Below, one piece after another: positions 13,457 through 14,934 of a DNA stretch of 45,018 nt. The position numbers and the translations under genes are program-made. The notes under the pieces were generated by a model that was not told where the DNA came from, made no database searches, and was given only the letters and a program-made list of their open reading frames with translations. How positions within the stretch are numbered: the stretch's first letter is position 1; the number at the start of each line of letters is the position of its first letter. Origin of the DNA: Ilumatobacteraceae bacterium (lineage in GTDB: Bacteria; Actinomycetota; Acidimicrobiia; Acidimicrobiales; Ilumatobacteraceae); contig JAJTFJ010000013.1 of NCBI GenBank assembly GCA_021298435.1, positions 1 through 45,018 of the forward strand, given 5' to 3'.

Positions 13457-13813
13457 ATGAAGCTCATAACAGCAATCGTGAAGCCCTTCAAGGTGGACGA
13501 CGTGAAAGAAGCCCTCAAAGGCGCCGGCGTGCAAGGCATGACAGTGTCCGAAGCTCGCGGGTTTGGCCGTCAGGGTGGACACACCGAGACCTACCGTGGC
13601 TCTGAGTACCAAATCGACTTTGTTCCCAAGGTGAAGATGGAATTCGTCGTCGATGACAGCAATGTGAACGACATCCTCGACCTCATCACAAAGGCCGCCA
13701 GCACGGGCAAAATCGGCGACGGCAAGATCTGGGTCACCAATGTTGAGCAGATCATCCGTATCCGTACGTCATCAACACGGGGCTCTGCACCGGATGTGCT
13801 GGCTGCGTGGTGA
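13457..13813 (+). CDS. glnK: Nitrogen regulatory protein PII (second copy, altered C-terminus)
   Basis: The second PII protein keeps YRGSEY with Tyr51 in the T-loop and the [11 protein letters not shown] segment. It follows the first copy closely up to RIRT (residue 104, base 13768). There the family pattern stops: the usual GE-G-DAV ending is replaced by [14 protein letters not shown], giving 118 instead of 112 residues. The replaced bases are exactly those that, one frame over, encode the first iron-sulfur motif of the next gene. The C-terminus of PII takes part in the nucleotide site region, so function may be affected. The gene is therefore either fused to, or has lost its end against, the FrhB-like gene. 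Confidence 0.88.
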
Positions 13814-14934
13814 CCTGTCCACATGACGTCATCGGATACGAACATGAAGAGGGCAAGTACAAGCCCTTCCATATCGAAGAAGAACTCGGTCTTGACAACT
13901 GCTTGCATGGCGAGAAGGGCTGCACCACATGCACACGTGCGTGCCCTCGTTTCCGCACCTGGGAATCTTCTGCGAACAAGCACCTCTTTGGTCGCGATCG
14001 CGAAGACGATGAGATGGCCGGCATCTGGGAACAACTACTTCTCACTCGTGCCACAGACAAGACACAGTTAGAAAAAGGACAAGACGGTGGCTTTGTCACC
14101 GCGATGCTCTCTTGGTTAATGGACAACAACTACATCGAAGGCGCACTCGTTAGTGGCGTCGAAGACGATGACAGATGGAAGGCCAAGCCAGTCCTCGTGC
14201 AAACGAAGGAAGAAGTTCTTGCTACCGCAGGCTCGCGCTACACCTACTGCGCCAACCCACTTGCGCTTCCCGAAGCAAAAGAAAAGGGACTCACCAAGCT
14301 TGCACTTGTTGGTATGGGCTGCCAAGTGTCATCGCCCCCCGTGATGTGGGATCGCAAGGCCGGCAAAGTGTCAAAGCCATTCCAATTCAACATTGGACTT
14401 TTGTGCAGCAAGACATTCGACGACGCCATCTTCCCTGAATTGTTTGAAGCCAAGTACGGCTTGAAGAAGCAAGACATGGTGAAGATGAACATCAAGGGCG
14501 CCTTCCAAATCTGGATGAACGATGGTTCGTTCCATGAGATCGATTTGAAGGAATGCCATCAGTGGACACGCGAAGGCTGCAAGAGCTGCCCCGACTTCGC
14601 TGCTGAACATGCAGACATCTCCACCGGAGGCATTGGCAAGGACAACAGCTGGACGCTCACCATCGTGCGCACCAAGTTGGGCGTTGAAGTGATCGAGCGC
14701 ATGATCAAAGAAGGCGTCATTGAGTCGAAGCCTGCGCAAGAAGACGAAGTGGCGATGAAGTTGCTACGGACACTGTCGATTGTGAGCCGTCGCCGTTGGC
14801 CAGATTGGGCAGAAACAACAGTGAAGGTGGGAACACCTGCACTGAAGAAGAAGGCTCCAGCACCTGATGCTGCACCAGCAGACGCACCAGCAGCAGACGC
14901 CACACCAGCCGCCGAAACAAAACCAGCGGAGTAA
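13807..14934 (+). CDS. FrhB/F420 hydrogenase beta-subunit family iron-sulfur flavoprotein, 5' end disturbed
   Basis: The product belongs to the coenzyme F420 hydrogenase/dehydrogenase beta-subunit family (FrhB_FdhB N and C domains), iron-sulfur flavoproteins that move electrons between F420, ferredoxin or flavin and a partner. The only conventional start, GTG 13807, gives 375 residues that open in the middle of a ferredoxin motif. The reading frame continues upstream to 13747 without start codon and encodes [12 protein letters not shown] directly before VVTCP, completing the C-x2-C-x2-C-x3-CP cluster. The second cluster is whole (C32, C39, C42, C46 from GTG). Later marks are GSRYTY, GMGCQV and [15 protein letters not shown]. 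The tail is Ala/Pro/Lys-rich. Start, fusion to GlnK or consensus error remain open. Confidence 0.75.

Follow-up and report, generated by a model that had tools for sequence, protein, structure and literature searches.

How do a P-II gene and a flavoprotein gene come to meet at a single base, in different reading frames, with no start codon for the second gene? This question is raised by glnK2 and its frhB-like neighbor in our window, a 45,018-nucleotide stretch of DNA from an Ilumatobacteraceae draft genome (referred to here as G000; 76.5% complete). A sequence-only reading of the locus had offered several options, among them a natural fusion that would couple nitrogen sensing to redox chemistry. 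We compared the locus with those of related genomes and found that the junction very probably arose when about 116 bases were lost at an assembly join, an event that would hide an ordinary glnK end and an ordinary frhB start.

Two genes that meet at one base

The locus lies in a run of genes on the forward strand (10387-14934) in the order glnK, amt-like, amt-like, glnK, frhB-like, where the amt names were read from sequence. The features around the junction are as follows.

13457..13768, forward strand: glnK2 (P-II protein), first 104 codons through RIRT; from the ORF, Pfam P-II and a codon comparison with the nearest relative, G014.
13747..13767, forward strand: seven codons open in the FrhB frame but made up of glnK DNA, into which tblastn matches extend by a few residues.
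13768..13768, no strand: junction; 116 G014 bases are absent, and one base (G) is common to both sides.
13768..14934, forward strand: gene for an FrhB/FdhB-type flavoprotein that carries ferredoxin motifs at its N terminus; the start codon and the first 24 codons are absent; from the ORF, Pfam and relatives.
13769..13813, forward strand: out-of-frame tail of 14 residues and a stop, FrhB DNA read in the glnK2 frame; from translation.

glnK2 starts at the ATG at 13457 and reads through ...IIRIRT to 13768. Its product belongs to the P-II family (PF00543; E 1.2e-32, 112.7 bits against a cut-off of 25), matches profile positions 1-101 of 102 and, like other GlnK proteins, is encoded after an ORF read from its sequence as an Amt transporter. 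It differs from the family in what follows RIRT, which in this assembly is out-of-frame sequence. In relatives, each of the 40 adjacent glnK copies closes with RIRTG or a RIRT-like tail and a stop of its own, and the tail at 13769..13813 is predicted not to be a natural C-terminus.

Directly after the TGA at 13744-13746, the FrhB frame opens at 13747 and runs on to 14934; it is listed with its translation among the ORFs. Its product matches the Pfam FrhB_FdhB_N, FrhB_FdhB_C and 4Fe-4S domains, and the N and C domains (PF04422 and PF04432) pass their cut-offs with 77.4 bits against 22 and 109.7 against 23.3, which places it in the FrhB/FdhB family. The intact protein at the nearest related locus (L032, in G014) matches by sequence the PDB chains 8riu_B, 8rja_E and 7np8_A (F420-dependent sulfite reductase). 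This protein falls below the NCBIfam cut-offs for FrhB and FpoF, and it does not reach the equivalog for the FrhB of F420-reducing hydrogenase (TIGR03289; 186.1 bits against 331.5). What sets the window copy apart from the family is the absence of the start codon and the first 24 codons. Our literature searches found no work on FrhB together with Acidimicrobiia and F420.

The bases bear out the observations from which the sequence-only reading set out. glnK homology ends at RIRT and FrhB homology begins at the same base, 13768, in a different frame, where the FrhB-frame codon GTC opens a stretch of 24 residues. No ATG, GTG or TTG occurs in the FrhB frame between 13746 and the GTG at 13807, and three cysteines are encoded 5' of that GTG. 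Positions 13747 to 13813 are shared by both frames. There is thus no continuous PII-FrhB frame in the window, since the frames differ and the glnK2 stop ends at 13813. Alignments of relatives do extend slightly into the glnK DNA upstream of the junction. In close relatives they mostly begin three residues ahead of the V of VINTGLC, at residue 5 in the frame of the window, where a tyrosine matches by chance; in a few more distant relatives they reach residue 3 or begin at residues 6-8.

The same locus in related genomes

We searched for FrhB in 61 genomes, including the window's own, and obtained matches in 59, some of them weak or distant (for example, in G023). A genome collection, when scanned, yielded 197 relatives; 80 loci were kept from these, and all 80 were examined. 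The nearest relative, G014 (contig C1, record WLHL01000001.1), encodes an FrhB protein 99% identical to that of the window. Its DNA is collinear with the window on both sides of 13768, without gaps, except for one step at which positions 90423 and 90307 of its contig both align to 13768. Because both flanks align gap-free and differ by this single 116-base step, the arrangement at the junction is not due to chance. The sequence-only reading had suggested a one-base consensus error near 13768; the nearest genome has 116 more bases instead. These comprise the last eight glnK codons and the stop, a 16-base spacer, the first 24 frhB codons with their ATG, and one further base, which is why glnK2 and frhB are out of frame in the window.

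The missing segment is an ordinary part of the locus. The FrhB N-terminal motif RWT(A/H)QW(K/R)EL followed by CTGC is present in all 80 kept loci, and the RWT(A/H)QW(K/R)EL motif is absent from all three forward frames of the window. An ATG lies no more than 45 codons upstream of the FrhB match in 77 of the 80 loci, and there is none in the other 3. A same-strand glnK with its own stop ends 14-177 bases before the FrhB start in 40 of the 80, is further off in 13 and lies elsewhere in 7. In the remaining 20, glnK was not found within the DNA examined, which was short upstream in 6 of them. No fused glnK-frhB gene was seen among the 80 loci. Relatives therefore show the ordinary glnK stop, spacer and normal ATG before the CTGCAGC motif that the sequence-only reading had itself named as the finding that would speak against its proposal.

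The junction is specific to one assembly. With up to 3 mismatches allowed, the 28-base junction is found in just 1 of the 32 genomes of the genus, the window's own, and an exact-match search of viral contigs returned nothing. Conversely, the codon pattern of the FrhB N terminus (up to 2 mismatches) occurs in 27 of the 32 and is absent from G000. Among the other four genomes in which this pattern was missed, two (G008 and G017) lack any FrhB match, a third (G023) yields just a weak, distant one, and in the fourth (G013) the match starts at residue 53, at the end of a contig.

Codon comparisons show how the two genes have changed. Of the 104 glnK2 codons, 17 differ synonymously from those of G014 and 1 differs in the encoded amino acid. 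In frhB, 40 of 360 codons differ synonymously from G014 and 0 in the encoded amino acid, which suggests a functional gene. When L033 serves as outgroup, 22 synonymous and 0 amino-acid changes can be assigned to the window's own FrhB lineage. Such patterns in glnK2 and frhB are the marks of working genes.

The window differs from its nearest relative in other ways as well. About 12 kb (29208-41386) does not align to that relative's contig, which has about 2.3 kb between the same flanks; this stretch looks strain-specific. Most of the first amt-like gene (10736-12023) gave no alignment block longer than 150 bases to G014 under the DNA settings used, and its neighbors align at about 90%.

Other length differences in the draft genome

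Is the loss at 13768 an isolated case? We compared 944,673 of the 1,534,142 bases of G000 with 1,146,425 bases of G014, in alignment blocks of at least 500 bases that sum to 561,300 bases, and counted length differences of at least 8 bases with one side nearly empty. These 37 differences comprised 30 net losses and 7 net gains in G000. Twenty-five of the losses were examined (net changes of -33, -387, -1036, -39 and -1825 were left out), and all 25 are clean and span 13-174 bases. Their junctions share 0-1 bases in 20 cases and no more than 2 in 24; one has a 9-base repeat, as expected of a real slippage deletion. Eleven losses are not multiples of three. The other 14 are, compared with about 8 expected from random joins, and some of the in-frame losses are therefore probably real differences.

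Several losses break conserved genes. On contigs C40, C22, C17 and C4 of G000, all outside the window, pth, argH, prfC, a PLP-enzyme-like gene and the start of a lacZ-like gene are broken relative to G014. The losses in pth (109 bases), argH (37) and prfC (35) are in genes whose names were confirmed by NCBIfam; the PLP-enzyme-like and lacZ-like names were read from sequence, and the former gene has no NCBIfam match at cut-off. Across the whole assembly, pth is represented by two pieces alone, which lack model positions 58-93, and no second copy was found. argH is split likewise, with its sole other match below cut-off, and so is prfC. Bacteria need Pth, and the breaks are for that reason hard to accept as real, although the part missing from the draft could contain an intact copy of pth or argH. 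Thus, losses similar to that at 13768 occur elsewhere in the G000 sample, including in genes expected to be needed.

The opposite direction was also considered. According to the ORF lists, none of the seven G000 gains is a clear out-of-frame interruption of a G014 gene; one (on C20) lies in short tandem copies, with ORFs of 306 and 286 codons in the two genomes. A reciprocal ORF test on a smaller sample (679,156 G000 bases) flagged 12 of 303 ORFs one way and 10 of 298 the other way, mostly for single in-frame stops that may reflect shadow ORFs. Breaks missing several residues numbered two in G000 (prfC and the PLP-enzyme-like gene) and none in G014, and each genome had one small frameshift. 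N bases are absent from the sampled stretches of both genomes, which neither proves nor excludes gap removal.

Assembly errors are a common source of apparent pseudogenes, according to the available part of one report (PMC11017572). As in the cases described in that part, the genes here are disrupted in a single assembly, and near relatives have them intact. The cases there concern frameshifts and internal stops, whereas the breaks of interest in G000 are clean losses of tens of bases.

Explanations for the missing bases

What, then, removed the 116 bases? In the explanation we favor, two ordinary neighbors, glnK2 and an FrhB-type gene, are displayed without the DNA between them and across their ends: the assembler or a later scaffolding step would have joined across an unresolved stretch and dropped the missing bases. 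Relatives carry the missing segment between collinear flanks, the junction is unique to G000, FrhB has been constrained, and the same draft shows other losses; together these argue for bases lost at a join. Counting against an artefact are the in-frame excess, the one 9-base repeat, the similar totals of flagged ORFs in the two directions and the limited completeness of the draft.

The main competitor, which we consider unlikely, is a real and very recent deletion of the same 116 bases in the sequenced population. GlnK would then have a changed tail, and frhB would be dead or poorly translated. The deposited DNA is exactly what such a deletion would give, the excess of in-frame losses suggests that some real deletions have occurred in this lineage, and glnK2 keeps the RIRT arginines, which we take to have a role in nucleotide binding. 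Yet the FrhB lineage has accumulated its 22 synonymous changes without one amino-acid change in 360 codons, so the loss of function would need to be almost immediate. Moreover, the reading frames of pth, argH and prfC would also have been lost in G000, and the junction shares one base only. That single base also led us to reject slippage at a repeat. A strain chimera at 13768 was rejected too: identity to L032 is 90.8% on the left and 96.2% on the right, and similar differences occur in other pairs (81.9 and 88.2% for L032-L033; 79.3 and 84.2% for L032-L034), so the contrast seems to reflect the genes rather than a breakpoint.

Far less probable still is a natural GlnK-FrhB protein, whether the explanation lies in a one-base consensus error, an atypical start codon or a ribosomal frameshift. 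The overlap of the two frames would suit it, and glnK and frhB are neighbors in half of the related loci. However, it would lack a motif found in every locus examined, no fusion occurs among these loci, the glnK stop precedes the FrhB start in all 40 adjacent pairs, and the junction itself is confined to one of the genus genomes. By eye, the overlap holds no classical slippery heptamer, and ATC and ACG were the sole near-start codons noted close by; comparison with relatives makes the matter of frameshifting or a rare start moot. We give the least credence of all to a combination in which the deletion is real and recent and a truncated FrhB is still translated, either from a non-canonical start or through a frameshift out of glnK, yielding a PII-linked flavoenzyme. 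In the literature we found nothing that pairs glnK with frhB beyond a gene inventory of methanogens, as far as the available part of that source goes, and a narrow search for PII fusions, itself weak as evidence, found none. Of the options in the sequence-only reading, the one in which the end of glnK and the start of frhB were removed had the right form. Its PII-flavoprotein fusion and nitrogen-redox coupling find no support among relatives, where the genes are separate, and its unusual start or recoding gives way to the normal ATG upstream of CTGCAGC.

If bases were indeed lost at a join, the living cell most likely carries glnK2 and frhB as two intact genes, each with its own start, and the tempting false lead of a PII-redox fusion is removed. 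Our comparison also suggests that short stretches within conserved genes are missing from this draft genome through such losses, and its other broken genes should therefore be checked before they are read biologically. A more modest point about the biology remains and is real: glnK and an FrhB-type gene adjoin in half of the related actinobacterial loci examined.
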